41,019 bases of DNA, from the NCBI GenBank assembly GCA_937918935.1, contig CAKZSI010000014.1, positions 1 through 41,019 on the forward strand. The letters are read 5' to 3'. Positions 1 to 15,004 of this stretch are shown here, piece by piece. Both the position numbers and the translations under genes were made by a program. The notes under the pieces are model-generated. The model was not told the origin of the DNA and did not search any database. It saw only the letters and a list, made by a program, of their open reading frames with translations. The DNA comes from an uncultured Chloroflexales bacterium. Lineage in GTDB: Bacteria > Chloroflexota > Chloroflexia > Chloroflexales > Chloroflexaceae. Positions within the stretch are counted from its first letter, which is position 1. Each line of letters opens with the position of its first letter.

Positions 1-126
1 TTTGCACATCTCGACTGCTTGCAGGACGAACTCGAAGCCGTGCTTGCGACCTACACTCCCGAGCGACTGCAATCACTCAGTGGCTACCCCTACCTGGTGC
101 AGACCGAGCTTGCGATGACCTCCTAG
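1..126 (+). CDS. C-terminal tail of an unidentified protein, possibly a transposase (5' end outside window)
   Basis: The first reading frame is open from base 1 to a TAG at 124-126 and gives 41 residues ending in ELAMTS, with an ordinary helix-forming composition (LQDELEAVLATYTPERLQ). The style resembles the end of an IS630-like DDE transposase, but no catalytic residue lies in the visible part, so this is a weak guess. The stop falls almost exactly where the frame of the next, truncated gene begins to read like protein. That fits an element inserted into, or recombined with, the downstream gene. Any other protein tail is equally possible from 41 residues. Confidence 0.35.
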   Translation, partial: FAHLDCLQDELEAVLATYTPERLQSLSGYPYLVQTELAMTS

Positions 127-128
127 GG

Positions 129-824
129 AATTGGTATTACACCTCGCGCCGGCTGCCCTACCCCCTGGTCGAGCAGATCCCCACGGTGCGGATGTTTGCC
201 TATGCCGAACCCGCGCCGGACATCATCACCCAGAAGCCCGCGGAGATCGCGGCCAGCGTCTTCAGTTACTTCAACATCCGCTACCTGATGCTCCACGGCG
301 CTGGTGGCGCCCTGCGTGATGGCTACCTCCAGACGATCGCAGCAGCAGCGGCTGGCGGCGCCAAACCTGAGCGCGAACGCTCCATGCTGGCCTCCTCCGA
401 TACGCGCAGCGCGTCGGGCCTGCTGCGGGCCACGGGGCCGTTTGAGCCGCCGGTAACCGGCTCGGTGCTGGCCTACCGCGTGGTCCCGCCGGACGATCCG
501 CTACCGTTTCTGGGAATCGGCGCCGGTTGGTCACCTCCACGGAAAACGCCTGCGGGCGTGGAGCGGTACATCACCGACGAAGCCGAGGTGCTGATTTACA
601 GCGCCCGCCCGCGGAAGGTGACGCTGGAACTGGACCTGACAAGCCCCGGCGCGGGCGCGCTTGAGGTGCGTGTGAACGGCGCGGATCGCCCGCCGCTGAC
701 GCTACCCGGCGGCAACTCGCGCCAGCGGTTCACCCTGGACATCGAGAGCGGCGCGACCCGGGTGCACCTGCGCCCGTCGGTGGCCGGGGCGCTGGTGGTA
801 CATGGGCTAGGATTAGAAAGCTAA
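129..824 (+). pseudogene. 5'-truncated membrane glycosyltransferase-like gene (C-terminal soluble domain only)
   Basis: From about base 129 the frame reads NWYYTSRRLPYPLVEQIP and continues through VFSYFNIRYLMLH to a stop at 822-824. The first ATG is at 186 and has no convincing ribosome binding site. The pattern 'YTSRR...P..IRYL.LH' followed by a beta-rich C-terminal domain is what I expect at the end of large PMT/ArnT-like or YfhO-like membrane proteins, where it follows a multi-spanning transmembrane region. Here that whole region is missing and is replaced by an unrelated reading frame that stops at 126. I infer a gene remnant cut at its 5' side. The family assignment is by general resemblance only. 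A short soluble protein made from the ATG at 186 (212 residues) cannot be excluded. Confidence 0.5.
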
Positions 825-1066: not shown

Positions 1067-1609
1067 GTGGAACAATGGGTCGAACGCCATGAGGTATTTC
1101 GGGGTCGCTTCATCACCGTGTTCACCGGCACGGTGATGATCGCCAATGGACAGACAGCCCGGCGGGACGTGATGGAGCATATCGGCGGGGTGGCAGTCGT
1201 GCCGATCCATGCAGACAAGGTGCTGCTGGTGCGGCAGTACCGCATTGCCGCGGGCCGGGAGATGCTGGAATTGCCAGCGGGCCTGTTGCATCCAGGAGAG
1301 GCCCCGGAGGACGCGGCAGCCCGCGAACTGGCCGAAGAAACAGGCTATCGCGCCGGGCAGCTTATTCCACTGGCAAGCTACTATACGTCGCCGGGCTACA
1401 CGAATGAACGCACCCACATCTTTCTGGGCCTTGACCTGACCCCCACCGCTGGAACAGCCGATTGGGACGAACTCTTGCATCCCGAAGAACTGCCCCTGGA
1501 GGGATTACAGCAGGCCCTGCTCGAAGGGTCGTTCAGTGATGGAAAAACGATGATTGGCCTGTCACTGGCGCTGGCCTGGCTGACGCAACACGGCAAGACC
1601 GGGACGTAG
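1067..1609 (+). CDS. Nudix hydrolase, ADP-ribose pyrophosphatase type
   Basis: The product is a 180-residue cytoplasmic enzyme that should hydrolyse a nucleoside diphosphate linked to another group, most likely ADP-ribose or an ADP-sugar, to a nucleoside monophosphate and a phosphorylated moiety. The Nudix box lies at residues 72-94: G72, E78, then RELAEETG at 86-93, with the Mg-binding glutamates E87, E90 and E91. The strand HIGGVAVVPI before it and the motif SPGYTNERTHIF after it are typical of the ADPRase branch. The start is a GTG at 1067, chosen because AAAGAGG precedes it by about 10 nt and HEVFRGRF, the usual ADPRase N-terminus, follows at once. It appears monocistronic. ADP-ribose as substrate is inferred from the family. 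Confidence 0.9.
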   Translation: MEQWVERHEVFRGRFITVFTGTVMIANGQTARRDVMEHIGGVAVVPIHADKVLLVRQYRIAAGREMLELPAGLLHPGEAPEDAAARELAEETGYRAGQLIPLASYYTSPGYTNERTHIFLGLDLTPTAGTADWDELLHPEELPLEGLQQALLEGSFSDGKTMIGLSLALAWLTQHGKTGT

Positions 1610-1864: not shown

Positions 1865-1902
1865 GGTATTTTTTCGGACTGCGCGCCCCTCTGTTTGCAT
1901 GA
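1865..1902 (+). promoter_or_regulatory. Shared two-part promoter-like element, copy A (anti-sigma/CHAT)
   Basis: GGTATTTTTT at 1865-1874 is followed by CTCTGTTTGCATGA from 1889, 24 nt from start to start. The two other copies (5613 and 9494) have 23 nt. Its position, 45 nt upstream of the ATG at 1934, and the helix-turn spacing of about 17 nt between GGTATT and CTCTGTT fit a -35/-10 pair of an alternative (ECF-type) sigma factor. This copy is the most divergent in the CACGTGA part. Confidence 0.5.
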
Positions 1903-1933
1903 TAATGACCTGTGCCGTAGCGCGAGGAAAGCT

Positions 1934-2533
1934 ATGCAGCAGATACCCTATGATGTTCTGGTGGACCTGGTTGAAGGGCGCCTCGCGGAGGCTGAGGCCA
2001 CGGCGCTCCGCGCCCGCATCGCCGCGGACCCCTCGGCGCAGGCCGAGGTAGCGGCGCTTACAGAGTTGCTGGCTCTGATGCGCGAGGACGACAGTGTTGA
2101 TGCACCGGAACATGTCATTCAGCGTGCACTCCGTCTGATGCCACGGGCGACGAACCGTCCGGCGGAGACACTGCGCCGGTTCATTGCCAGTCTGATTCAC
2201 GATAGCTGGCGCGCGCCGCAGCTTGCCATGGGTCTGCGCGCAGGCGAACGCTGGCCCCGTTCGCTGTTGCTGCGTGCAGCGGATTGTGAACTGGATTTGC
2301 AGATTACGCCCAGTGGCGAACAGTGGCAACTGGCAGGCCAGGTGCTCGGCCCCGAAGCATCGGGCACGGCCATCCTTAGCGGCCCCGCTGGCAACGTCAC
2401 TGCCCCGCTGAATGACCTGGGAGAGTTTGTCTTTCCACCACTGCAAACGGGCCGCTATACGCTGACGTTGCGACAAGATGACCTGGAGATCAACGTGCCC
2501 GAATTGGAGATCGGGCCAGAGATAGAAGAGTAG
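1934..2533 (+). CDS. Anti-sigma-factor-like protein with C-terminal beta domain, upstream partner of CHAT protease
   Basis: A 199-residue protein. Its N-terminal ~65 residues (YDVLVDLVEGRLAEAEATAL, then ARIAADP) resemble the helical anti-sigma fold found with ECF sigma factors ('L..Y..G.L...E...l...l..dp'), but the usual HxxxCxxC zinc site is absent. There is no transmembrane helix. Residues about 110-195 form an alternating, Gly- and Thr-containing beta-rich stretch (VLGPEASGTAILSGPAGNV; FPPLQTGRYTLTLRQ) like carboxypeptidase-regulatory or SpaA-type beta sandwiches. The start at 1934 is chosen because AGGAAA precedes it and the promoter-like element lies 45 nt upstream. The CHAT gene follows after about 100 nt, so the two are probably co-transcribed. 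The anti-sigma role is inferred, and no sigma factor gene is visible in the window. Confidence 0.55.
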   Translation: MQQIPYDVLVDLVEGRLAEAEATALRARIAADPSAQAEVAALTELLALMREDDSVDAPEHVIQRALRLMPRATNRPAETLRRFIASLIHDSWRAPQLAMGLRAGERWPRSLLLRAADCELDLQITPSGEQWQLAGQVLGPEASGTAILSGPAGNVTAPLNDLGEFVFPPLQTGRYTLTLRQDDLEINVPELEIGPEIEE

Positions 2534-2637
2534 GTCAGCGTCTGGAGCATGGCGACGGCAAGCCTGAGCAAACTGGTCGCCCCGGTTGCTCCAGATAGTT
2601 TCAACCTGGGGGAGAATAACGTCTGACAATACCGGCA

Positions 2638-5484
2638 TTGACGCTTCAGCAAGCAAATGCTCAGCACCTCGCCGAGCGCCTGGCCGGCGCCAGCGGCGAG
2701 GAACGTAACGCGCTGTTCCGCGCGCATGAGGCATTCCTCGACGCATCACTGGCCCACGCCTTGAAGGTGCTCTGCTATGCCACCTGGGCCAGTGACCCGC
2801 CGCGCGCCATTGGCGCCGCGGACGCCCTTGCCGATCTGGCCGCGCTGCGACCAGAGCCTGAAATCTGCGCCCTGGCCGAATGGACCGCCGGCATCGCCGA
2901 CCTGGTGCGAGGCGCTATGGAGACGGCAACTGGTCACCTCGATGCGGCAGCGGCGATGTTCACGCACCTCAATGACCACCACACCGCCACCAGTACCCAG
3001 ATAAGCAAGCTGATCGCCCTGGCTCTACTGGGGCGCTATGCCGAAGCAGTCGCCTGCGGCCTTCAGGCCCGCGACACCTTCCTGGCCCTGGGCGACGAAT
3101 GCGCCGCCGGGAAGGTCGAGCAGAATCTTGGCAATATCGCCTGGCGCCGCGACGATTACCGCGAGGCCGAACAGTTTCACCGGCTGGCACGTGAGCGTTT
3201 TGCCCGCGCCGGCGATGTGGAACTGCTGGTGGCGGCGGAGAATGCCCTGGCAATGGACCTGGCAGCGCAGTTCCGGCTGCATGAAGCTGCCGACCGTTAT
3301 GCCCATGCGCTCAAACGCGCCGAAGAAGCTGGCCTGGAACTGCGCCAGGCGGAAATCGAGGCCAACCTGGGCAATCTGGCCCTGGCGCAGGGCCGCTACG
3401 ATCAAGCCCTGGATTATCTGGAACGCTCGCGCCGGCGCTACGCCGCCCTGGGGATGCCCCACGAGTCGGCCTGTGCCGAACAGGAACTGGCTGAAGCGTA
3501 CCTCGACCTGAACATGGCCCCCGAGGCGGCGGCAATCTACGCCCGGATCACGCCAGTCTTCGCTGCACTGGGGATGCGTGCCGAGCAGGCCTGGGCACTG
3601 GCCCATTATGGGCAGGCCGCGGTGCTGCTCAGCCAGTACGATGACGCGCAGGCGCGCTTTGCCACTGCGCGCCAGTTGTTCCTGGAGGAAGGCAATACCC
3701 TGAGCGCGGCGCTGGTCACGTTGTTCGAGGCCCACCTGGCCTACCGGCGCGGCGAATATGTTGCCAGCCTCGAGCAGGCCAGGTCATGCGCCGCCGTCTT
3801 CGCGAGCGCCGGCAATTACGGGCGCGCCCTGCTGGCGCGCTGGCTGCAAGGCGAAGCCCTGCGCGCGCTAGGGCGCTACCATAAAGCCCGGGCCGTGCTG
3901 CTGGCCGTTGATCACGAAGCCGGGTGGCACAATGTGCCGCAGATCGCGCAACGAGCGCAGGCCAGCCTGGGGCTGCTCGCCGCTGCCACGGGCGATCGGG
4001 CGCAGGCAGAAGCCGCTCTGCGCCGTGCGGTCACCCTGATCGAAACCCTGCGGGCGCCGCTACCCTCCGAAGAACTGCGCACCGCCTTCGTGGCCGATAA
4101 GCTTGGCCCCTATGACGCTCTGATGCGCCTGTACCTTCAGGACACCCCGCCGCGCCCTGGCGAGGCCCTTGCCTGCGCGGAGGGCGCCCGGGCGCGAGCC
4201 CTGGCGGAGGTCATCGGGCGCGCGGTGCAGACCCTGGCCCATCCGCGCGATGCCTTCGAAGCCCGCCTGTTGAGCCAGATGAGCAGACTGCGCGAGGAGT
4301 TGAACTGGCTGTACACGCGCCTCAACCGCCTTGTTGCCACCGACGAGCCTTCACCCTCGTTTCAGGATAACCTCCAGGCCGCAATCCACGCCCGCGAAGT
4401 TGCCATTCTCGACCTTAACCGGCAATTGCACCTCCGGGGTGGAATGGCGCCCGGCGCCGTCGCGCCCTTCGATCTCTCCGCTCTGCAACAGGCCCTCGGC
4501 GCTGATACGGCGCTGGTGGAGTATCATAGTCTCGATGGCCAGATCATCGCCTTCATTGTCACTGATACCACGGTTGAGGCGGTGCAGGAACTTGGCAGCG
4601 AGGGCCAGGTGGAGACCCTGGTGGCCCGGCTCCGCTTCCAGATCGAAGCGCCCCGGCGGGGCATCGCCATCGATTCAGCCCACGGCGAGCAGGCGCTGCG
4701 CCGGGTGCGCCACTATCTCGAACGGCTGCACTGCCTGCTGCTCGCTCCCCTGGAATCCCGCCTGGGCGCACGCCGCCTCGTCATTGCGCCGCACCGGGCC
4801 CTGCACTACGTGCCGTTCCATGCCCTCTACGACGGTACACACTATGTCATTGAGCACCGCGAGGTGTGTACCGTGCCGAGCGCCGCCGTGCTCCAGCACT
4901 GCCTGACCCGCCCGCGACACGCATATGAGCGAGCGGTGCTGGTGGGGTATGCCGACCAGCGCGCTCCCCGCGTGCGCGACGAGGTGCGCTCCCTTGCCCC
5001 CCTCTTCCCACAGAGCGTCGTCCTGCTGGACCACGGGGCCCACAGCGCAGAAGTGCGCCGCCATGCGCCAGATGCCGATGTGCTGCATCTGGCCTGCCAC
5101 GGGGTCTTTCGCCCCGATAACCCGTTGTTCTCGGCCCTGCATCTGGCTGATGGCCGATTTACCACTCGTGACGCCTATGGCCTCACCCTGCAGTGCGAAC
5201 TGGTCACCCTGAGCGCCTGCGAGACGGGGGTGAGCACCATCGCGCCCGGCGATGAATTGATCGGCCTGTCCCGCGGTTTCTTTGCCGCGGGCGCGCCAGG
5301 CCTGCTTGTCAGCCTCTGGACAGTTGATGACGCCAGCACCGCCGACCTGATGCGCCACTTCTACCTCCATCTGCGCATGGGCGGCGCACCCGCCGCCGCC
5401 CTGCGCAGCGCCCAGCGCGCCCTGCTGGCAAGGCGCCCCCATCCGTTCTTCTGGGCAGCCTTTGTCCTGATGGGCCGCTGGTAA
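2638..5484 (+). CDS. TPR-CHAT caspase-like protease
   Basis: A 948-residue protein. Residues from about 20 to 480 are a chain of tetratricopeptide-type helical repeats (AKVEQNLGNIAWRRDDYREA; ANLGNLALAQGRYDQALDYL), a protein-binding scaffold. The C-terminal ~340 residues are a CHAT domain (caspase fold). The catalytic histidine is H821 in HLACHG and the catalytic cysteine C861 in LSACETG, followed by the usual GDELIGLSRGFF and FFWAAFVLMG tail. CHAT proteases cleave partner proteins when the repeats sense a ligand. The substrate here is unknown, but the secreted subtilase gene and the anti-sigma-like gene flanking it are candidates for one pathway. The TTG at 2638 is 23 nt from GGGGGAG (2608-2614). 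An in-frame CTG at 2623 has better spacing (8 nt) and may be the true start. Confidence 0.88.
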   Translation: MTLQQANAQHLAERLAGASGEERNALFRAHEAFLDASLAHALKVLCYATWASDPPRAIGAADALADLAALRPEPEICALAEWTAGIADLVRGAMETATGHLDAAAAMFTHLNDHHTATSTQISKLIALALLGRYAEAVACGLQARDTFLALGDECAAGKVEQNLGNIAWRRDDYREAEQFHRLARERFARAGDVELLVAAENALAMDLAAQFRLHEAADRYAHALKRAEEAGLELRQAEIEANLGNLALAQGRYDQALDYLERSRRRYAALGMPHESACAEQELAEAYLDLNMAPEAAAIYARITPVFAALGMRAEQAWALAHYGQAAVLLSQYDDAQARFATARQLFLEEGNTLSAALVTLFEAHLAYRRGEYVASLEQARSCAAVFASAGNYGRALLARWLQGEALRALGRYHKARAVLLAVDHEAGWHNVPQIAQRAQASLGLLAAATGDRAQAEAALRRAVTLIETLRAPLPSEELRTAFVADKLGPYDALMRLYLQDTPPRPGEALACAEGARARALAEVIGRAVQTLAHPRDAFEARLLSQMSRLREELNWLYTRLNRLVATDEPSPSFQDNLQAAIHAREVAILDLNRQLHLRGGMAPGAVAPFDLSALQQALGADTALVEYHSLDGQIIAFIVTDTTVEAVQELGSEGQVETLVARLRFQIEAPRRGIAIDSAHGEQALRRVRHYLERLHCLLLAPLESRLGARRLVIAPHRALHYVPFHALYDGTHYVIEHREVCTVPSAAVLQHCLTRPRHAYERAVLVGYADQRAPRVRDEVRSLAPLFPQSVVLLDHGAHSAEVRRHAPDADVLHLACHGVFRPDNPLFSALHLADGRFTTRDAYGLTLQCELVTLSACETGVSTIAPGDELIGLSRGFFAAGAPGLLVSLWTVDDASTADLMRHFYLHLRMGGAPAAALRSAQRALLARRPHPFFWAAFVLMGRW

Positions 5485-5540
5485 GACTTTTTCTCTCCCC
5501 TCCTCCCGACCCTCCGCGCCGCAAGGGCAGATCGTTGCAG

Positions 5541-5558
5541 AGGCAGTGGCCGCTGCCT
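5541..5558. terminator. Hairpin downstream of the CHAT gene
   Basis: AGGCAG and CTGCCT pair around a 6-nt loop, 57 nt after the CHAT stop codon. There is no T-tract. This is a weak terminator candidate separating the CHAT gene from the subtilase promoter region. Confidence 0.3.
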
Positions 5559-5612
5559 GCCACAACGACGGGGCAGCCGGCGCAGTACCGTCACCTTCGT
5601 CACAAACATGGA

Positions 5613-5649
5613 GGTATTTTTCCCCTCCCTGCGTGCTCTGTTCACGTGA
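5613..5649 (+). promoter_or_regulatory. Shared two-part promoter-like element, copy B (subtilase)
   Basis: GGTATTTTT at 5613 and CTCTGTTCACGTGAA from 5636 match copy C closely in sequence and exactly in spacing (23 nt start to start). The second half contains the perfect palindrome TTCACGTGAA. The subtilase ATG is 95 nt downstream, so the mRNA would carry a leader of roughly 85 nt. Confidence 0.55.
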
Positions 5650-5730
5650 ATCCCGGATGATGTTGAACCAGACTTGTATGCAAACGCGTGTCGCGTTGCA
5701 AGCAACTTCACGCTCAGAAAGGGAAGGTTT

Positions 5731-7101
5731 ATGCTCGAACCGAAGCGAGCATCGGCCTGGTTGCGCCTCAGCGTTATCGCCCTGGCATTGATCAGCCTGA
5801 TCTGGCCCTCGACCCTGACGGCCCAGACCGGCGCCTCGTCGGACGATACCGCTTATCTGCCCGATGAGATCGTGGTGAAACTGTTCAACGCCGCCGACCT
5901 CCGCGCCGTCGCGCGCGCCAATGGCCTCGACCCCGTGCCGCTGGATCGGTTTGGCTCGCGGCCTATCTTTCGTCTGCGCATCCTCGACGGAACCGATCCG
6001 CGCGTAAAAGCCAATGCCCTGCGCCCGGCCAACGGCTCGGGCGGCGATAGACGGGTGGAATACGCCGAGCCGAACTACCTGGCCGAGGCGCCGGAGGCGC
6101 GCCGCGGGCGTCCTTCCTGGGTCATCGGGGAGAATGTCGGCGGGTACGCGGCCCAGTGGGCGCCGCGGGCCATCAGGCTCGCCGAGGCGCACACTGTCAC
6201 CCGTGGCGCGGGGATGGTTGTCGCCGTGCTTGACACCGGCGTGGACCCGAGTCACCCGGCGCTCAGCGACCGGCTGCTGCCGGGGTTCGACTTTGTGGAT
6301 TTCGACAACGACCCACGTGAAGAAGGGCAGTACGGCATCAACCCGGGTTTTGGCCATGGCACTCACGTGGCCGGGCTGATCGCCCTCAGCGCGCCGGAGG
6401 CTCGGATTCTTCCCGTTCGAGTGCTGGACCCGGACGGCGCCGGGAATATCTGGGTGCTGGCCGAAGGGCTGCTCTATGCGGTCGAGCGGGGCGCCGACGG
6501 CCAACCCCTCAGCGGCGATGAAGCCCGGATCATTAACCTGAGCCTGGGCACGCTGCGCCGAACGAACCTGCTTGACGAGATCGTGGCTGAGGCGAGCTGC
6601 GCGAGCAGGGACGATGATGACGATGATGACGATGACGATGATGACAACCGTTGCGCGCGCACCGGCGGCGCGGTGGTGATCGCAGCGGCAGGCAACGAAG
6701 GGTCAACGCGGCGCTCATATCCAGCCGCCGAGAACGTGGCCGGGCTGCTGGCGGTTGCCGCGAGCGGACAGAATAACCGGCTGGCACCCTTCTCCTCATA
6801 CGGCGACTGGGTAGACATTGCCGCCCCGGGCGCCGAGATCGTCAGCACGGTGCCGGGAGGGGGCTATGGAACGTGGAGCGGCACCTCGATGGCCGCGCCC
6901 CTGGTTGCCGGCGCTGTAGCGCTGCTGCGCGCCGCCGAGCCTGGGCTGCGAGCGCAAGAGGCCGCCTCACGGCTGGTGGCAACCGCGACGCCACTCTGCG
7001 GCAACGGCCCGCCGCGACTCGACGCCGCCGCCGCTCTGGGTCTGGGCGGTTCAACCGGCGTATGCACGGCCCAGATCCCGCTGGTGCGATGGGGAGGATA
7101 A
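5731..7101 (+). CDS. Secreted subtilisin-like serine protease (S8) with poly-aspartate loop
   Basis: A 456-residue preproprotein. Residues 1-33 are a signal peptide (basic LEPKRASAWLR, then a hydrophobic core, possible cleavage after LTA). Residues about 40-110 are an I9-like propeptide (DEIVVKLFNAADL...). The S8 catalytic domain has D168 in VLDTGVDPSHP, H209 in GHGTHVAG, oxyanion N322 in AAGNEG and S386 in SGTSMAAPLVAG, so it should be active outside the membrane. Residues 294-305 are twelve consecutive aspartates encoded by GAC/GAT triplets (6610-6645), flanked by cysteines at 289 and 308. This could be a calcium-binding surface loop closed by a disulfide. The ATG at 5731 is preferred over 5674 because GGGAAGG lies 4-10 nt upstream and the signal peptide begins there. 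It shares the upstream element with the anti-sigma gene and the PIG-L operon. Confidence 0.93.
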   Translation: MLEPKRASAWLRLSVIALALISLIWPSTLTAQTGASSDDTAYLPDEIVVKLFNAADLRAVARANGLDPVPLDRFGSRPIFRLRILDGTDPRVKANALRPANGSGGDRRVEYAEPNYLAEAPEARRGRPSWVIGENVGGYAAQWAPRAIRLAEAHTVTRGAGMVVAVLDTGVDPSHPALSDRLLPGFDFVDFDNDPREEGQYGINPGFGHGTHVAGLIALSAPEARILPVRVLDPDGAGNIWVLAEGLLYAVERGADGQPLSGDEARIINLSLGTLRRTNLLDEIVAEASCASRDDDDDDDDDDDDNRCARTGGAVVIAAAGNEGSTRRSYPAAENVAGLLAVAASGQNNRLAPFSSYGDWVDIAAPGAEIVSTVPGGGYGTWSGTSMAAPLVAGAVALLRAAEPGLRAQEAASRLVATATPLCGNGPPRLDAAAALGLGGSTGVCTAQIPLVRWGG

Positions 7102-7260
7102 CAGGATCGAAGGTTAGCCAGGTCGCGCCATCCTCGGGAGAGATCAGCAAGACTATACTCGCGCGAACTCTTCCTGAGGCCAGGGACGAGGGGAAAGCGA
7201 ATTTGCCCTCCCTTGCCTGACCGCCTTATTAACCCGTCAGAGCTTACAAGGAGTGTCCGT

Positions 7261-7656
7261 ATGAACATCTATCCTATTCAACCCGGCCGCTACAAACGCA
7301 CCTACGCCACCCATCTTGCACCTGAGAGCGCGATAGTCGGATTCACGTCGCCGTCCGCCGCTCCGAGGATCGGTGATCTGCTCGCCGCTGAGGTGATCAG
7401 CGTGGGCAAACATACGATGATCGAGACGGAACACGGGGTGACTATGAACCTCTTTCCCGGCGATCGTCTTATCGGCGCCTTTGGCTACCGCTATGCCACC
7501 GATCAGTACGAAGGCGTCGTTCCGCAAACATGGGGCGAAACGTGCGATCTGTTGTCGGTGGGAGGCGTCTGCGGCGAGGTTCGTTCGGCTCATACTTCGA
7601 TGAGCGCACCCACCCGTCGAAGTCGCCTCTCCGGTTCTCATCGGTGCGGTGATTGA
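7261..7656 (+). CDS. Unidentified protein, probably 3'-truncated by a deletion
   Basis: A 131-residue product from an ATG at 7261 with AAGGAG 8 nt upstream. I do not recognise the family with certainty. It has a compact beta-rich start (MNIYPIQPGRYKRTYATHL; GDLLAAEVISVGKHTMIE; LFPGDRLIGAFGYRYATDQY) and a conserved-looking stretch DLLSVGGVCGEV at about 113-124. After that the sequence degrades into an Arg/Ser-rich tail (TRRSRLSGSHRCGD), which is exactly where the adjoining ABC transporter frame begins to read as protein. The natural reading is an N-terminal domain whose remainder was lost by a deletion joining it to the middle of the next gene. It overlaps that gene's GTG by 8 nt. Confidence 0.55.
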   Translation: MNIYPIQPGRYKRTYATHLAPESAIVGFTSPSAAPRIGDLLAAEVISVGKHTMIETEHGVTMNLFPGDRLIGAFGYRYATDQYEGVVPQTWGETCDLLSVGGVCGEVRSAHTSMSAPTRRSRLSGSHRCGD

Positions 7657-9253
7657 CCAGATCCTCCACCCTTCAGCGGGGGGGACACGGGTGCACGAAG
7701 TGGCGCTGCTGGCGCTGCTTACGGGGATGGCCGTGGTGCGGGGCGCTCTGGTAGCGCGCCAGCACGCGCTCGCCGGGCGGCTGGGGGAACAGACCACGGC
7801 GCGGATGCGTGACCAGCTCTGGGCGCACCTCCAGGCAGTATCGCTGGACTATGTGCGCCGTCGCGGGCCAGGACGCCTCTCACTGCGCTTCGTGGCCGAT
7901 ACGCGGATGGTGCAGCGGCTGGTCACCCATGGAATCGTGCAGTTGAGCCAGGATGCGCTGCTCCTCGTAGCCATTCTGCTTACCATGGCGCTGATCAACT
8001 GGCGCATGGCTTTCGGAGTGGTCGTCATCCTGCCGGCCTACGTAGTACTGTTCCAGCGGCTCAACCCGCCCCTGCGCAAAGCCAGCCGGGCCACGCGCCG
8101 TTCACGTAGTCGTCTGGCGGCCTATCTTAACGACCGGCTGCACGGCATAACGGTCATCAAAGCCTTCGTGCGCCAGCCGCTTGAAGAGTCGCGCCTCACC
8201 CGGCTTACCAGACGCCTGGCCCGCCATGGCAGCCGGCGGGCCAGCCAGGGTGGCCGGCTCCAGGGCTTCGCTGCCGGCGCCGTGGCCCTCAGCGGAGTGA
8301 TCGTGCTGGCCCTGGCGACGGTAGAGATGACCGCGGGGCGCCTCAGCGCTGGCGCCCTGGTGATGTTCTACACCTTGCTGGGACTGGTAACACCCATCTT
8401 TCAGCGTATCGCCACGGCCAACCGCATCTTCCAGGAAGCGTACATCTCCCTGGATCGGCTCCAGGAGACGCTCAAAGTCAAGCCCGAGCGACCGGCCCGC
8501 GACCTGCGCCCGCCCCTGCGCGTCACCGAAGGCGCGTTGAAGGTCGAGGGAGTGGACTATCGCCACCCCGAGCGGGGCGTGATCCTTGAGGGGATAACCT
8601 TGCATGCCAGGCGCGGCGAACTGGTTGCCATTACCGGCCCAAACGGCGCCGGAAAAAGCACGCTGATCGAACTCCTGCTCGGCTTCCGAGTACCGACCGG
8701 AGGACAGATCCTGATTGATGGCCAGAACATATCTTCGGTCGCCCTCGATTCCCTGCGGGCGGCGATCGGTTTCGTGCCCCAGGAGGCCCCCTTACTGGAC
8801 GGTAGCGTGGCCGAGAACATCCTCTACGGGGTGCGCGCGGGCGTTCCCGAAGAGCAGATCCTGCAAGCCGCACAGCTTACCGGCGTTGACGCCCTCGTCG
8901 CCCGGTTGCCGGAGGGCTGGGATACGCCGGTTGGCGCGGGTGGCAGCAGGCTCTCCGGCGGTCAGCGCCAACTGATTGCACTGGCGCGCGCGCTCGCTGC
9001 CGATCCGCCGTTGCTCATTCTTGATGAAGCGAACGCCGCCCTCGATGCCGCTGCCGAGGCCGAGCTTGCCGCCGTCCTGCGGCGGCTTGCAGAGCACAAA
9101 ACCATCATCGCCTCGGCTCACCGGCCAGCAACCCTTATGGCCGCTGACCGGATCTACGTGCTGGCCGAGGGCCGTCTGGCCGAGGCAGGGACCCACCACG
9201 ACTTGCTTGCGGCCGGCAGCGTGTATGCCCGGCTGTTTGAGACCCTGAGATGA
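7649..9253 (+). CDS. ABC exporter, fused membrane and ATPase domains, N-terminally shortened
   Basis: A 534-residue half-transporter that would dimerise in the inner membrane and pump an unknown substrate outward. Residues about 10-300 are an ABC-exporter transmembrane region with coupling segments (TTARMRDQLWAHLQ). The ATPase has Walker A GPNGAGKST near residue 330, Q-loop FVPQEAP, signature LSGGQRQ near 435, Walker B LLILDEANAALD and H-loop SAHRPA near 490. Open frame upstream of the GTG, back to the TGA at 7601, adds AHPPVEVASPVLIGA, which reads as the second half of transmembrane helix 1. Exporters of this class normally have 20-50 residues more at the N-terminus. Those are missing, replaced by the truncated gene before it. 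Whether the shortened protein still works is doubtful. Confidence 0.85.
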   Translation: MIDQILHPSAGGTRVHEVALLALLTGMAVVRGALVARQHALAGRLGEQTTARMRDQLWAHLQAVSLDYVRRRGPGRLSLRFVADTRMVQRLVTHGIVQLSQDALLLVAILLTMALINWRMAFGVVVILPAYVVLFQRLNPPLRKASRATRRSRSRLAAYLNDRLHGITVIKAFVRQPLEESRLTRLTRRLARHGSRRASQGGRLQGFAAGAVALSGVIVLALATVEMTAGRLSAGALVMFYTLLGLVTPIFQRIATANRIFQEAYISLDRLQETLKVKPERPARDLRPPLRVTEGALKVEGVDYRHPERGVILEGITLHARRGELVAITGPNGAGKSTLIELLLGFRVPTGGQILIDGQNISSVALDSLRAAIGFVPQEAPLLDGSVAENILYGVRAGVPEEQILQAAQLTGVDALVARLPEGWDTPVGAGGSRLSGGQRQLIALARALAADPPLLILDEANAALDAAAEAELAAVLRRLAEHKTIIASAHRPATLMAADRIYVLAEGRLAEAGTHHDLLAAGSVYARLFETLR

Positions 9254-9321
9254 ACAACGACTCCGCGCCGGACATGCCGAGAGACCCGGGCCTGAAAGGG
9301 CGTTGCTGGCGGATGGCATAG
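9250..9321 (+). CDS. 23-residue ORF overlapping the ABC transporter stop (possible gene stub)
   Basis: ATGA at 9250-9253 joins an ATG to the ABC transporter TGA, the usual arrangement for translationally coupled genes, often a second ABC half-transporter. The frame ends after 23 residues (MNNDSAPDMPRDPGLKGRCW...). I infer a possible stub of a lost partner gene. A chance overlap is the alternative. Confidence 0.25.
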   Translation: MNNDSAPDMPRDPGLKGRCWRMA

Positions 9322-9567
9322 AACCCGTTTCAGCCTGTACGTTTTATCCGTCCCTGAACGTTCATCCTCGCAGATGCGCCAGGCCGTAAGAAGCTGTGCC
9401 GGAACACCTGTGAGCACCAGGCGCCATCGAGGTCATCCGTGGAGCGCGCCCAGGGTCAGACGAGATGCTTCAGGACCCGATTCAACACACAGAGGTATTT
9501 TTTCTGCGCTCAACGCCTCTGTTCACGTGAGCCGGAGAAAGCCTGCATCTTTGTGAGGAGTCGCATC
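9322..9567. other. Spacer upstream of the PIG-L operon
   Basis: I see no gene after the small ORF. The only clear structure is promoter-like copy C at 9494-9530. The counted gene-free stretch is 314 bases if the 23-residue ORF is discounted. Confidence 0.5.
9494..9530 (+). promoter_or_regulatory. Shared two-part promoter-like element, copy C (PIG-L/GT2 operon)
   Basis: GGTATTTTTT at 9494 and CTCTGTTCACGTGAG from 9517, 23 nt start to start as in copy B. The PIG-L ATG lies 51 nt downstream of CTCTGTT. It is identical to copy B over CTCTGTTCACGTGA although the two flanks differ, which argues for selection rather than a recent duplication. Confidence 0.55.
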
Positions 9568-10515
9568 ATGTGGGAAGCCTGGATTACTACGAACGCCCTG
9601 CACCATCTCCTGGCAAGCATCACCTTCGCTATTATCGGCCTGGTAGTGATAGCGCGACGCCGCGCACTCCGCCGCTCCGTCCGGCACGCGCCGCGGTTAT
9701 TCTGGATTACGGTCGCTCTCTGCGCTCTACTCGCGGCGTGGAACGGGGCGTGCCTGACCGAGATCCTGATGGGTCTGCATGGGCACACGACCCTGATCAG
9801 CGGGCTGTGCGAATGGGCGAATCTCATCACTCTGAGCGGCCTGATCCTGGCGCTGGTCTACAACCGCCTGGTGGTCGAACGCACCAGCCGACCCCGCCGC
9901 ATCCTGGCGATTGGTGCACACCCTGACGATCTCGAACTGGCCTGCGGCGCAACCCTGGCGAAACTGGCCGACGCCGGTCATCAGATTCAGGCCGTGGTGC
10001 TGACCGGCGGCGAACGCGGCGGCAACGCCACCGTGCGCCCGCTGGAAGCGCGGCGCGGCGCACAGTTCCTCGGTTGTAACGCCGTATTTGTGTACGACTT
10101 CGCCGATACACGCCTGCGCGAACAGGCCAATGAGATCCTGAGCGCCATCGAAATGCGCATCCGCGAGTTCAACCCCGATATCATCTTTACCCACTCGGCT
10201 AACGACCAGCACCAGGACCACCAGGCCGTCTACGAGGCCACGCTGCGGGCCGCCCGCAACCATGGCACCATCCTCTGCTATGAAAGCCCCTCCGTAACCT
10301 CGGACTTCAACCCCACCTTTTTCGTGGACATTGGCGACTACGTGGACGTGAAGATCGAGAGCATCCGGCAGCATCGTGATCAACGGCTCAAACCGTATGT
10401 CAGCGCCGAACGGCTGCGGGGCATGGCCCTTTTCCGTGGCGGCCAGGCAAAGACCCGCTATGCCGAAGGCTTTGAAGCCGTGCGTTCGCTCGCCTCGTCA
10501 TTAGGAGACATCTAA
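9568..10515 (+). CDS. Membrane-anchored PIG-L/LmbE family deacetylase
   Basis: A 315-residue protein with three hydrophobic helices at about 14-30, 45-63 and 83-100, followed by a cytoplasm- or surface-facing PIG-L domain. Zinc ligands are H118 and D121 in AHPDD, and H218 in NDQHQDH (H215-H218). These enzymes remove the acetyl group from N-acetylglucosamine-type sugars or related conjugates. The start at 9568 is chosen because GTGAGGAG lies 8 nt upstream. It heads a tight run with an ATP-grasp gene (3-nt gap) and a GT2 gene (1-nt overlap), so it probably de-acetylates a polymer or lipid-linked sugar made by that GT2 enzyme. The membrane anchor is unusual, since most PIG-L proteins are soluble. 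The exact substrate is inferred. Confidence 0.85.
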   Translation: MWEAWITTNALHHLLASITFAIIGLVVIARRRALRRSVRHAPRLFWITVALCALLAAWNGACLTEILMGLHGHTTLISGLCEWANLITLSGLILALVYNRLVVERTSRPRRILAIGAHPDDLELACGATLAKLADAGHQIQAVVLTGGERGGNATVRPLEARRGAQFLGCNAVFVYDFADTRLREQANEILSAIEMRIREFNPDIIFTHSANDQHQDHQAVYEATLRAARNHGTILCYESPSVTSDFNPTFFVDIGDYVDVKIESIRQHRDQRLKPYVSAERLRGMALFRGGQAKTRYAEGFEAVRSLASSLGDI

Positions 10516-10518
10516 CCC

Positions 10519-11376
10519 ATGGCAACGATCCTCGTTACCGGTATCGGCGGCCCGGCAGGGCGCAGTGTGGCACACCTTCTCCTTGCGCGCGGCCACCGTG
10601 TGGTGGGAGTGGACATGCAACCGGCAAACATGCCTGGCATCACCTGCCACACGGTTCCTGCGGCCCTCGACCCGATGTTTCTCCCGGCCCTTGAAAAGCT
10701 CGCCCAGAGCGTGCAGCCCGACCTGGTGATCCCCACCGTGAGCGAGGAACTGCCCATTCTGGCCGCGATTGGTGATGTGTGGAACTTCGGACGTGTGGCG
10801 GTGGGCAACTATCTGGCGGTGGCGCTCTGCAACGACAAGTTCCACACCTGTCTGCACCTGGCCAGCCAGGGCGTGGCCCTGCCACGCTTCGATCTGCCAT
10901 CACGCCTGGACGAAGCCGAGACGGTCGGCGCACGCCTGGGCTGGCCCTGCCTGGGTAAACCGCGGGTGGGCCGCGGCGGGCGCGGGGTGCGCCTGTACCA
11001 GCCGGAAGACTGGCCACCGCCGGAGTCGCTCGAAGATAGAATGATCATCCAGGAGTTTGTGCCGGGGCAGGAATACGCTCCAAATCTGCACCTTGGCCGC
11101 AACGGCGCCACTATCGTGGTGCTGGAGAAAACCAGCCTCCGCGACGGGGTGGTCGGCAACGCCGTAGCCGTGCGCCGGGTCGAAGCCCCTGACGTGGCCG
11201 CCGTGGCTCTGGAGGCCTGCCGCGCCCTGGGATTGCGCGGCGTCGCCGACGTGGATGTGCGCCGGCGCGCCGATGGAACGCCGGTGGTGCTCGAAGTCAA
11301 CGCTCGCTTCGGGGCCAACGTGGGCCAGGCACCCGAGGTGCTCGATGCGCTCCTCAATGAAACAGGACTGGCCTGA
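10519..11376 (+). CDS. ATP-grasp ligase, carbamoyl-phosphate-synthase-like
   Basis: A 285-residue protein that begins with a Rossmann-like pre-ATP-grasp domain (ILVTGIGGPAGRSVAHLLLA, residues 4-23) and continues into an ATP-grasp fold. The signs of the fold are CLGKPRVGRGGRGV for the phosphate-binding loop, MIIQEFVPGQEY for the adenine-binding hinge, and VLEVNARFGAN near the C-terminus for the Mg-binding Glu-Asn pair. Such enzymes form an amide-type bond between a carboxylate and an amine through an acyl-phosphate. Being locked between a deacetylase (3 nt upstream) and a GT2 synthase (TGATG overlap) suggests it decorates the free amine exposed by deacetylation, but that is inference. The substrate cannot be read from sequence. 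Confidence 0.82.
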   Translation: MATILVTGIGGPAGRSVAHLLLARGHRVVGVDMQPANMPGITCHTVPAALDPMFLPALEKLAQSVQPDLVIPTVSEELPILAAIGDVWNFGRVAVGNYLAVALCNDKFHTCLHLASQGVALPRFDLPSRLDEAETVGARLGWPCLGKPRVGRGGRGVRLYQPEDWPPPESLEDRMIIQEFVPGQEYAPNLHLGRNGATIVVLEKTSLRDGVVGNAVAVRRVEAPDVAAVALEACRALGLRGVADVDVRRRADGTPVVLEVNARFGANVGQAPEVLDALLNETGLA

Positions 11377-12599
11377 TGGAACTCTTCGCGGCCCTGTTTG
11401 CGATCAGCAGTCTGATGCTCTACCATGTCGGGCTGCTGACCCTGTTCTACCATCCGCTGGCTCTGTGGTATGAAGCGCGTCGCTTGCTTCCGCGCCGTCA
11501 GCCCCTGTACTGGCGCCGCCAGCCGCTAGTTTCCATCGTTGTGCCAGCCTATAATGAAGGGCCTGTGCTCGACCGATGTATTCGCTCGATCCTGGCCTGC
11601 GCCTACCCCTTCAAAGAACTGATCCTGGTTGATGATGGCTCGACCGACGATACGCTGACAATAATGCGGCGCTACGAGCGCCACCCGCGTGTGAAGGTGA
11701 TCGCCAGGCCCAATGGCGGCAAGGCTTCGGCGTTGAATACCGGGTTGCGCCGCGCGCAGGGCGAGGTGCTCTTCTTCGTGGATGCCGACGGTCTGTTCCG
11801 TGAGGATACCATTGACGCAATGCTTGCGGGCTTCGAGGATACCCGCGTCGGTGCGGTGTGCGGCAATGACGCCCCCGTGAACCTCGACCGTACCCAGACC
11901 CGCCTGCTCTGCCTGTTGAGCCACGTCGGCACCGGCTTCGTCCGGCGCGCGTTGAGCGTCATCAACTGCCTGCCGATTGTGTCAGGTAACATCGGCGCCT
12001 TTCGGCGCGAGGCCCTCGAACAGGCTGGCCCGTTCCGCGAAGGGTGCATCGGCGAGGACCTGGAACTGACCTGGCGCATCCATCGGGCAGGATACCGGGT
12101 GGTGTTCCAGCCACGGGCGCTGGTCTATGCCGAGTCGCCCTCGACTGTGCCGGGGTTGTGGAAGCAACGGGTGCGCTGGGCACGCGGGCTGCTGCAAACT
12201 GCCTGGTTGCACCGTGACATGTTCTTCCGCCCCCGTTACGGGCCGATTGCCTTTTTCCTGCCCCTCAACGTGGTGAGCATGGCCTTCTTCCCGCTGGTGC
12301 AACTCGGCATCCTGGCGCTCTTACCACTGCTGGCGCTCGCTGGCGCGCTGCCGCTCCGTGTTGACCTGCTGGCGTTGATCGGCTGGCTGGGGCTGGGCGT
12401 TGCCTGTTTCACCCTCATTGTGGCGTTGATCCTTGATCGCGCCTGGCGCGATCTGCGCTTCCTGTATGTCGTGCCGCTGTGGATCCCTTACTCAATCTTC
12501 CTGTGCCTGGTGGCCGGGCGGGCGCTCTTCCTGGAGTTGCGGCGCCGGGAGGCGCGCTGGAACAAGCTGCAGCGCACCGGCGTGGTCAGCCGCCGATAA
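11376..12599 (+). CDS. Processive glycosyltransferase family 2 (PgaC/IcaA-like polysaccharide synthase)
   Basis: A 407-residue integral membrane enzyme. One N-terminal helix (residues 1-30) precedes the GT2 catalytic domain with VSIVVPAYNEG, DDGSTDD, the DXD-like FVDADG and GEDLELTWR. It ends in the QxxRW motif (KQRVRWARGLLQ) that marks processive synthases. Three to four C-terminal helices follow. The size and layout match IcaA/PgaC, which polymerise UDP-N-acetylglucosamine and export the chain, so a beta-linked amino-sugar exopolysaccharide is plausible. Coupled to the preceding ATP-grasp gene by TGATG. The linkage and sugar are inferred. Confidence 0.88.
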   Translation: MELFAALFAISSLMLYHVGLLTLFYHPLALWYEARRLLPRRQPLYWRRQPLVSIVVPAYNEGPVLDRCIRSILACAYPFKELILVDDGSTDDTLTIMRRYERHPRVKVIARPNGGKASALNTGLRRAQGEVLFFVDADGLFREDTIDAMLAGFEDTRVGAVCGNDAPVNLDRTQTRLLCLLSHVGTGFVRRALSVINCLPIVSGNIGAFRREALEQAGPFREGCIGEDLELTWRIHRAGYRVVFQPRALVYAESPSTVPGLWKQRVRWARGLLQTAWLHRDMFFRPRYGPIAFFLPLNVVSMAFFPLVQLGILALLPLLALAGALPLRVDLLALIGWLGLGVACFTLIVALILDRAWRDLRFLYVVPLWIPYSIFLCLVAGRALFLELRRREARWNKLQRTGVVSRR

Positions 12600-12711: not shown

Positions 12712-13857
12712 ATGCATCGTCATGTCAGCACCCTGCTGCTCGGCCTCCTGAGCTTCCTCCTCGCTGCCTGCACCCTGGCGCCGGACGTGTCACTCTCGCC
12801 GAGCGTCGGGTCCGCTGCTTCGGGCGCCGATCCGACACCCACGCCAACACATGAACCAGTACAGGCCATCGCCCTGAGCCACAGCGACTACCTGGCGCAT
12901 CGGGGCAGCCGTGAAGCCTACGCAGCCGTGTTGCGCGCGCGAGGGACAACCATGGTCGGGCTAAATGCCGGACGGCTCGACTGGACCTACTTTCCCTGGC
13001 CGGAGCATCGCGAGCGCTGGTCCGAGGATGTGCGCGTGACCGGGACGGATTTTCTGGCCGAGGAAGCAGCCCTGTTCGGTTCGTGGAGCGAAACGGTGGC
13101 GATTGTGGATGTGTTTGTTGAGCGCTACCTGAACGAGCATCCCGCCGCAGCGGCGCGCTCGGCAAGCGGCCAGCCCGGTCAGTTGCAGGTAAGCACCCAT
13201 GAACTGGTAGATGGACAGTTCGGCGAGGAGATGCTGACGCTGATTGAATACATTGCTGCGACCTATCCGGTTGACGCACTCGCGCTGACGGAGTTGTTCT
13301 ACGACGACTACGGCTTTGGTGAAGATGATCTGGCCGCATATCGGGCCTACACCGGCCAGGATGACTGGCCACGCACCGCCGATGGCGCCATTGACACCGA
13401 CCATCCCTCCATCGGCGACTGGCGCTCCCACGCGCTGAGCCGGTTCATCGCCAGGGCCGCGACGATTGTCCACCGGTATGACAAGGAGCTGTATGTTGAT
13501 GTACGGGTAAGCTGGGGCAACCTGGCTCGCGAGGGGCGGGAGAGCGGGCAGGACTACCAGCGCTTCCTGGCCCACGCCGACCGGCTGATCCTGTGGAACT
13601 ACTTCGGGCTGAGCGGTTACGCCCCCGAGTACAGTGAGGAGATTGCAGCGGCGGTGGCCCCTTATGGCCCCGGGCGCATCATCATCTCGATAGGTCTTTG
13701 GGCCGAGGATGAAACAACCGTCTCGCCGGAGCAGATGGGTCGGGCGCTCCAGGCCATCGAAGGTAGCCCTGTTCCCAATGTCTGGATCACCCCCAGCCAT
13801 ATGCTTGGCGAGAAGCACTGGGAGATTATCGAAGCACGATGGGGTGGTGGTTCATAA
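12712..13857 (+). CDS. Lipoprotein with glycoside-hydrolase-like barrel (PgaB C-domain style)
   Basis: A 381-residue secreted protein. Residues 1-19 form a lipoprotein signal peptide with lipobox LLAAC, so C20 should be lipidated. A Pro/Thr linker (DPTPTPTHEPV) follows. The rest reads as a (beta/alpha)8 barrel with acidic clusters at strand ends (ALTELFYDDYGFGEDDL; LYVDVRVSWGN; RIIISIGLWAEDE), similar in plan to the C-terminal hydrolase/binding domain of PgaB. Its place 112 nt after the GT2 gene makes it a likely surface partner that binds or trims the polysaccharide. No confident enzyme class can be assigned. The 112-nt gap holds purine-rich GGGGAACTGGGGAGCAGGG-type sequence and may allow separate expression. 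Confidence 0.7.
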   Translation: MHRHVSTLLLGLLSFLLAACTLAPDVSLSPSVGSAASGADPTPTPTHEPVQAIALSHSDYLAHRGSREAYAAVLRARGTTMVGLNAGRLDWTYFPWPEHRERWSEDVRVTGTDFLAEEAALFGSWSETVAIVDVFVERYLNEHPAAAARSASGQPGQLQVSTHELVDGQFGEEMLTLIEYIAATYPVDALALTELFYDDYGFGEDDLAAYRAYTGQDDWPRTADGAIDTDHPSIGDWRSHALSRFIARAATIVHRYDKELYVDVRVSWGNLAREGRESGQDYQRFLAHADRLILWNYFGLSGYAPEYSEEIAAAVAPYGPGRIIISIGLWAEDETTVSPEQMGRALQAIEGSPVPNVWITPSHMLGEKHWEIIEARWGGGS

Positions 13858-13951: not shown

Positions 13952-15004
13952 TCAGCAGATGCGCGGGAGCTGCTCGCCCACCTGCATGTCCACCACCCGC
14001 GTGCCACCGATGCCCGTGCGGGCCACCACCACCCCCGGATGCTCGGCGGTGACCTCGCCGATGATCGCCGCCCGCGCGCCGAGGGGATGCGCCCGCAGGA
14101 TCGCCAGGGCCCGCTCGGCATCCTCAGGGGCCACCAGGGCCAACAGTTTGCCCTCGTTAGCGATGTAGAGGGGGTCCATGCCCAGGATCTCGCAGGCGGC
14201 CCGCACCGGCCCCGGCACGGGCAACGCGCGCTCGTCCAGGCGCATGCCCACCCTGGAAGCCATGGCGATCTCGTTGAGGCTCGAGGCCACCCCGCCACGG
14301 GTCGGGTCGCGCAGCGCGTGGACGGCGCAACCCGCGTCCAGCAGGGCCGCCACCATGTCGTGGAGCGGCGCGGTGTCCGACTCGATCGCCGCGCCGAACT
14401 CCAGGCCCTCGCGCACGCTGAGGATGGCCACGCCGTGGAGGCCGATCTCGCCACTGATCAGGACCACGTCGCCGGGTCGGGCCAGTTCCGGCCCGACCCG
14501 CACCCCCGGGGGGATCACCCCCAGCCCGGTCGTGCTGACGAACACCCCGTCGCCATGGCCGCGCTCAACCACTTTGGTATCGCCGGTCACCAGGGTGACG
14601 TCGGCCCGGCGCGCCGCCGCGCCCATGGTCTCGGCGATGACGCCGAGCTGGTCGAGGGGCATGCCCTCCTCAACGATGAAGCTGGCCGTCAGATACAGGG
14701 GCCGCGCGCCGCACATGGCCAGGTCGTTGATCGTGCCGTTCACCGCCAGGTGGCCGATGTTGCCGCCGGGAAAGAAGAGCGGGCGCACCACAAAGGCGTC
14801 GGTGGAGAGGGCCAGGCGCGCACCGCCCACCTCGACCACCGCGCCGTCGCCAAGTTGTTCCAGGGCGGCGTTGCGGAACGCTGGCAGAAACAGGTGGCGC
14901 ACCAGGTCCGCCGAGAGCTTGCCACCGCCGCCGTGGCCCATCACGATGGCCGGGTAGTCGCGCAGCGGGAGGGGACAGGTCCAATCCTCGAAGGAGAGGC
15001 TCAT
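13952..15004 (-). CDS. hypE: Hydrogenase maturation protein HypE
   Basis: A 350-residue PurM-like ATPase that converts the carbamoyl group placed on its C-terminal cysteine into a thiocyanate, the cyanide donor for the [NiFe] centre. MGHGGGGK near residue 22 and the glycine- and aspartate-rich [14 protein letters not shown] loop are the ATP-binding features. The C-terminus is LPRIC, the exact tail that carries the cyanide, so the protein should be functional. It is the last gene of the leftward operon and overlaps hypD by ATGA (15001-15004). Usual length for the family is about 330-350. Confidence 0.97.

Follow-up and report, generated by a model that had tools for sequence, protein, structure and literature searches.

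What reads a two-part, promoter-like element that recurs three times within 8 kb of DNA, in front of an anti-sigma and protease gene pair, a subtilase gene and a polysaccharide-type operon? The question is raised by the window analysed here, the whole 41,019-nucleotide (nt) stretch of contig CAKZSI010000014.1 (assembly GCA_937918935.1) from an uncultured Chloroflexales bacterium. The original prediction took the two halves of the element for a -35/-10 pair and proposed an extracytoplasmic function (ECF) sigma factor that governs its own partner genes. The account favoured here, which is on balance probable as a whole, is that one ECF sigma factor reads all three elements, that an anti-sigma factor holds it, and that a CHAT protease cuts the anti-sigma factor and thereby frees it. 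The promoters and the anti-sigma factor are well supported by sequence comparison; the protease switch is a strong hypothesis, drawn by analogy. The principal features are the following:

1865 to 1902, plus strand: putative promoter element 1, GTATTTT-CTCTGT with a spacer of 16, 5' of the anti-sigma and CHAT genes.
1934 to 2533, plus strand: predicted anti-sigma factor with four helices in its N-terminal domain and a beta-sandwich as its C-terminal one; it has no visible membrane segment and no zinc ligands.
2638 to 5484, plus strand: TPR-CHAT caspase-like protease (Pfam TPR and CHAT; His825/Cys865 in P0002 numbering).
5613 to 5649, plus strand: putative promoter element 2, spacer of 15, 5' of the subtilase gene.
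5731 to 7101, plus strand: subtilase of family S8 (Pfam) with a fervidolysin-like prodomain; its N-terminus reads by eye as a signal peptide.
9494 to 9530, plus strand: putative promoter element 3, spacer of 15, 5' of the PIG-L/polysaccharide-type operon.
9568 to 10515, plus strand: PIG-L-type deacetylase (Pfam), whose gene opens the polysaccharide-type operon; hydrophobic segments are visible by eye at its N-terminus.

These three elements are the matches to GGTATTTTT-N-CTCTGTTYRCRTGA in the window, all on the coding strand as first described, and 100 dinucleotide shuffles gave 0 matches. The second halves begin at 1889, 5636 and 9517, at half-to-half start spacings of 24, 23 and 23 nt, and lie 45, 95 and 51 nt 5' of the ATG codons at 1934, 5731 and 9568; re-measurement returned the values originally reported. 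Spacers and flanks differ among the three copies on inspection of the window, also as described. The claim that there is no other copy is true even genome-wide: a scan with a looser form of the element across the 4,602,940-base source genome recovered the three window copies only (backward control 0), and related genomes hold more. Allowing two mismatches at a fixed spacer of 15 nt, a setting blind to element 1 with its spacer of 16, added two genome sites against five control matches, which is chance level. Further targets in the source genome were rejected on this search and, because the extra matches stay at control level, the regulon there appears to consist of three promoters within 8 kb.

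The element is conserved elsewhere. In a set of 61 genomes that includes the source genome, GTATTTT-N15/16-CTCTGTW has 37 matches in 13 genomes, three of them the window's own, and the backward control has two. Conservation upstream of orthologues, a check named in the original prediction, was found in further families and at loci whose titles name other phyla. Outside the source genome, GTATTTT-N15-CTCTGT stands 5' of orthologues of each of the three targets: element 1 has its counterpart between the sigma and anti-sigma genes in many relatives, element 2 has one 5' of the S8 gene, and element 3 has one 5' of the orthologous PIG-L operon in genomes G056 and G060. Sigma and anti-sigma orthologues occur together in the same 14 of the 61 genomes, at thresholds (anti-sigma E<=3e-17, sigma E<=1e-34) chosen after a gap had been seen in the match lists; at E<=0.001, anti-sigma matches are found in 18 genomes and sigma matches, mostly to other ECF factors, in all 61. 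The element is present in 10 of the 14 genomes with both proteins (Fisher p = 2.5e-6, kinship ignored). Taken together, the sequence comparisons indicate that the three elements are real, conserved and functional-looking. Genes 3' of the element in relatives include DUF1611-like, glycosyltransferase-like, glycerate-kinase-like and secreted-looking proteins (named by eye, DUF1611 excepted). In G006, three tandem elements, the third a one-mismatch form, stand 5' of one anti-sigma gene, and in G017 there are two copies with identical spacers (for both cases, L115 3118-3266 and L117 9883-9972).

The sigma factor itself is most likely encoded outside the window. All 15 region-2 sigma matches in the source genome lie on contigs other than C14, and a sigma gene inside the window was rejected on this result; the cognate one, G000:C2:76951-77559, is the closest of the 15 to the sigma factors that directly precede the anti-sigma gene in relatives. 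The cognate gene adjoins the anti-sigma gene in most of those relatives. Here it ends about 380 bases from the end of contig C2, where the following gene is cut off. The peptides encoded at the end of C2 and at the start of the window are both contained in the product of a single G002 gene, a 787-residue membrane protein, after which comes the same Nudix gene. Because this intact gene bridges both contigs, C2 is placed just upstream of the window, and the sigma gene most likely lies a few kilobases upstream of it. Two window features bear on this placement:

186 to 824, plus strand: C-terminal piece of the membrane protein, whose N-terminus is at the end of contig C2, adjoining the sigma gene.
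1067 to 1609, plus strand: Nudix hydrolase, collinear with G002; this helps to locate the contig with the sigma gene upstream of the window.

The three elements are very probably promoters of this sigma factor. Element conservation, the pairing of sigma and anti-sigma genes and the probable sigma neighbour all back the predicted -35/-10 arrangement and an ECF sigma factor governing its partner genes. On the further expectation that the ECF sigma gene would itself be preceded by the motif, the genomes differ: the motif is absent upstream of the candidate sigma gene on C2 here, and in G060 (exact) and G051 (one mismatch) the element stands 5' of DUF1611, ABC and sigma genes in line. The first 124 or so bases of the window (1-124) recur at several other contig ends of the source genome and look like a mobile-element end that may have interrupted the membrane protein gene and broken the assembly.

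A scan with a sigma alignment extends the comparison to loci titled as other phyla. The alignment (A1) has 13 rows and omits sigma fragments and distant copies in L117, L120 and L124. The 80 loci named are the best 80 of at least 560 confirmed stretches, and counts describe the nearest relatives only; the loci overlap the 61 genomes, and L193 and L194 are near-duplicates, so that the counts are not independent. Loci were picked by similarity of the sigma protein, and the element played no part in the choice. Phylum labels are those of the record titles, and some are doubtful. Among the 80 loci, some of them cut by contig ends, 77 have an anti-sigma match, 65 a CHAT match and 51 an S8 match; the full order of sigma, anti-sigma, CHAT and S8 on one strand is found in 41, and some others end with their contig. 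GTATTT-N16/17-C[TA]CTGT has 62 matches in 80 kb of windows at anti-sigma and S8 starts (each reaching from 350 bases upstream to 260 bases downstream of the frame's stop-to-stop start) and 21 in the remainder of the 1.0-Mb set on both strands; the reversed control has 0. The pattern falls in the start window of 38 of 76 anti-sigma genes and 22 of 51 S8 genes. A relaxed form of the element occurs within 300 bases around the sigma stop in 45 of 74 loci, compared with 2 of 14,800 shuffles, which preserved 2-base blocks rather than full dinucleotide counts. The 74 are those of 79 phylum-sorted loci with sigma then anti-sigma on the same strand; L264 lies outside the three groups. By title, the proportions are 15/23 for Chloroflexota (shuffles 1/4,600), 14/26 for Acidobacteriota (1/5,200) and 16/25 for Proteobacteria (0/5,000).

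Several single loci deserve mention. Matches titled Acidobacteriota frequently have CACTGT in place of CTCTGT as the second half (L196, L200, L204, L213, L215 and L218), a possible case of co-variation between sigma factor and promoter. Locus L203 (G061) is titled Rubrobacter, but a search of its phylum gave a sigma match with the contig number and coordinates of Chloroploca, and it is probably a Chloroflexota genome; among 300 sampled genomes of G061's phylum, a sigma match at E<=1e-30 was found in 10. A plasmid search with the L203 anti-sigma protein gave no match, and one with the sigma factor gave four records: a Nonomuraea record with S8-like, anti-sigma-like and CHAT genes nearby, a Miltoncostaea record with S8 only, and two with neither. 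On the Miltoncostaea plasmid (L277), a related ECF sigma gene lies directly 5' of an S8 peptidase gene, and neither an anti-sigma nor a CHAT match was found within 8 kb of it.

The 199-residue product of 1934-2533 can be called an anti-sigma factor with good confidence, judging from family profiles and a structural model. Pfam gave no match to it at E<=0.001. The NCBIfam anti-sigma model aligns with residues 13-85 (E=1.9e-5; 24.8 bits, below the 100-bit cut-off), and 22 of the 68 proteins of the family match it at E<=0.01. The family alignment (A3, 68 rows) comprises 67 of 72 anti-sigma rows plus P0001; L194 was omitted as a near-duplicate, and L221, L239, L246 and L255 as weak or odd at the N-terminus. 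Against the PDB, the family profile matched RsiW (E=1.5e-6), DdvA weakly (E=0.009) and, weakly again, the 'CHAT domain-containing protein' 8rot (E=0.074), and its beta part matched NOMO2 (E=7.4e-5). The AlphaFold model (predicted local distance difference test, pLDDT, 91.1; predicted template modelling score, pTM, 0.64) has four helices and a beta-sandwich, and Foldseek ranks ChrR first among its matches (E=3.2e-3, prob 0.99). The RsiW profile match, the family-wide matches to the anti-sigma model and ChrR as best fold lend substance to the label "anti-sigma-like" that one target first received.

The N-terminal anti-sigma domain therefore resembles RsiW by profile and ChrR by fold. Unlike the ZAS-type proteins RsiW and ChrR, the window protein has no zinc ligands (H-x3-C-x2-C is not present); where VIA aligns it best with ChrR, only residues 1-71 are included. 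Within the family, 27 of 68 members have H-x3/4-C-x2-C among their first 60 residues, 13 of 68 score with zf-HC2, and 11 of 68 score with CarboxypepD_reg at E<=0.01, compared with only E=0.093 for the window protein. ChrR is soluble and its second domain is beta; RsiW has a membrane segment, and none is seen in the window protein. The beta domain is assigned to no named family, because its VIA matches are many unrelated beta-sandwich folds. R102 and R109 are invariant in 68 of 68 proteins and sit in a coil at residues 91-108 and at its edge, which makes this coil a candidate recognition or cleavage site.

The protease encoded next has an intact CHAT dyad, with His825 and Cys865 invariant in 19 of 19 aligned proteins. 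Its CHAT part matches the Csx29 model at E=2.8e-12 (46.3 bits), and solved Csx29 chains are among its structure matches. PADLOC, which covers defence systems, gave no match for the anti-sigma, CHAT or sigma proteins and only a generic subtilase model for S8, and a known defence system was rejected on that result. In the type III-E CRISPR (clustered regularly interspaced short palindromic repeats) system, as described in the pertinent sections of PMC10028731, Csx30 blocks CASP-sigma unless Csx29 cleaves it, and target promoters of CASP-sigma are predicted within the sigma factor's own locus. The window cassette is like Csx29–Csx30–CASP-sigma, so described, in joining a TPR-CHAT protease, an inhibitor, an ECF sigma factor and target promoters in one locus, and its protease shares the His/Cys dyad with Csx29. 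It differs in that the CHAT part is below the model cut-off (46.3/300 bits) and in that the inhibitor is a 199-residue anti-sigma protein rather than a Csx30 of 565 residues, to which no relatedness is evident. The window genes examined include no Cas7-11 or CRISPR part, though no search aimed at either was made in the window or the genome.

Comparison thus supports the element and its conservation, the sigma and anti-sigma pairing, the anti-sigma domain and the CHAT dyad. From these we infer recognition of the element by the sigma factor, cleavage of the anti-sigma factor by CHAT, a signal and a physiological output. The ECF sigma factor whose gene probably lies just upstream of the window would read all three elements, and the anti-sigma factor would hold it inactive. 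The TPR part of the CHAT protein may sense a cytoplasmic signal, whereupon the activated protease would cut the anti-sigma factor and free the sigma factor. Freed sigma would transcribe the anti-sigma and CHAT genes as feedback, together with the secreted subtilase and the envelope/exopolysaccharide-type operon. That CHAT releases the sigma factor by this cut is a claim to which we give an even chance; as Csx29 logic without a CRISPR guide, it is the simplest reading of the cassette and a strong hypothesis by analogy.

Several observations weigh against this account. Around the sigma stop, 29 of the 74 loci gave no match to the relaxed element, nor was any element found upstream of the sigma gene in the source genome. 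Among the 61 genomes, G020 (71% complete), G029 and G056 have the element with no sigma orthologue found, and G003, G013, G032 and G045 have the sigma factor without the exact element (one-mismatch forms occur in G003 and G045). The ChrR fold match is weak, with a template modelling score of 0.25 at the Foldseek E value given above; VIA does rank ChrR first (Z 8.0, residues 1-71, root-mean-square deviation 11.9 Å), but its Z is not decisive for helices. Relatives titled Betaproteobacteria or Burkholderiales seem by eye to be without the first helices of the anti-sigma domain. Finally, the loop with R102 and R109 is no better conserved than the beta domain (0.45 vs 0.48 on average) and four other invariant residues lie in strands of the anti-sigma protein, so both arginines may be structural.

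The strongest competing explanation keeps the same sigma factor and promoters and makes the anti-sigma factor the sensor: its beta-sandwich would bind a ligand and let the sigma factor go, and CHAT and the subtilase would be effectors. The two-domain layout with ChrR as best fold match accords with this, as do the better conservation of the C-terminal than of the helical domain (0.48 vs 0.37) and the position of the CHAT and subtilase genes behind the promoters as targets. However, CHAT follows the anti-sigma gene at most of the 80 loci, and the pairing of a protease with a neighbouring anti-sigma factor fits the known proteolytic release that PMC10028731 describes for Csx29 and Csx30; the sensor explanation is on this evidence unlikely. 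It is far less probable that the element serves as a two-part site bound by an activator or repressor. Two conserved halves could form an operator, and a palindrome, TCACGTGA, is visible by eye in two of the three window copies. Yet TCACGTGA is not seen beyond those two sites, neither half is an inverted copy of the other, 34 of 37 sites have a spacer of 15 and 3 of 37 one of 16 (only these lengths being allowed), which fits -35/-10, and the DNA-binding protein consistently linked to the element is an ECF sigma factor. That the elements are chance matches or a copied repeat without function is scarcely credible and was rejected on the shuffle, backward and reversed controls: the source genome does hold only three copies, all within 8 kb, but their spacers and flanks differ and the matching positions are conserved in other genomes with controls near zero.

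How new, then, is a regulon read by an ECF sigma factor and switched by a CHAT protease? In its treatment of ECF54, the review PMC8999054 describes a neighbourhood with CHAT, subtilase and a 'carboxypeptidase' domain protein, proposes proteolytic control, has the factor act without an anti-sigma factor, and names a model sigma from Geodermatophilus. The window cassette, with its ECF sigma factor, CHAT and subtilase, is like ECF54 as so described; unlike it, the window protein with weak carboxypeptidase-regulatory similarity is itself the anti-sigma-like one. Since CarboxypepD_reg scores in part of the anti-sigma family, the 'carboxypeptidase' neighbour of ECF54 in that description may be this anti-sigma factor. 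The Nonomuraea locus (Actinomycetota), with S8-like, sigma and anti-sigma-like genes and CHAT on the other strand, is consistent with the ECF54 link. The original prediction knew of no described regulon with these outputs. For the whole cassette or its promoter, nothing closer than ECF54 was found in open-licence literature; because the core genes resemble the ECF54 context that the review outlines, the regulon is nevertheless not wholly undescribed. The main text of a conflict-system paper (PMC7159879) has 'CHAT' and 'sigma' 0 times as whole words.

More broadly, the cassette could represent a widespread, CRISPR-independent relative of Csx29–Csx30–CASP-sigma, in which CHAT cuts a ChrR/RsiW-type anti-sigma factor at the arginine loop and a multi-phylum promoter drives a secreted protease and surface polysaccharide. 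We advance this only tentatively, and regard it as rather doubtful in its full form. If it is true, the CRISPR version would be a late recruitment of an older CHAT/sigma module. The analysis supplies a concrete promoter, sigma factor, anti-sigma factor and candidate protease for a gene set in loci titled as at least three phyla, in contrast to the ECF proteolytic control without an anti-sigma factor of which the ECF54 account in PMC8999054 speaks. It opens a question for the bench, whether caspase-like proteases of the CHAT type switch sigma factors outside CRISPR systems, and offers a handle on TPR-CHAT roles in Chloroflexota, Acidobacteriota and Rubrivivax-like bacteria and on the origin of the CRISPR protease arm.

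The remaining genes of the region lie between the second and third elements and downstream of the deacetylase gene:

7261 to 7656, plus strand: truncated DUF1611-like gene, about 370 amino acids in G051 and G060.
7649 to 9253, plus strand: ABC exporter from which the N-terminal membrane part is missing; in G051 and G060 its gene is linked to the sigma cassette.
10519 to 11376, plus strand: ATP-grasp protein (Pfam).
11376 to 12599, plus strand: family 2 glycosyltransferase (Pfam).
12712 to 13857, plus strand: GHL10-like protein (Pfam match below its cut-off).
13952 to 15004, minus strand: HypE, hydrogenase maturation factor (439 bits, cut-off 252), after the polysaccharide-type operon.

In two relatives, the DUF1611-like gene is preceded by the element, which is exact in G060 and has one mismatch in G051. 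Set against these two genomes, the segment 7261-9253 holds a DUF1611-like gene without its P-loop half and an ABC exporter without its first membrane part, and it looks like a single internal deletion that joined two remnants. The HypE gene is possibly the start of a hydrogenase gene cluster.

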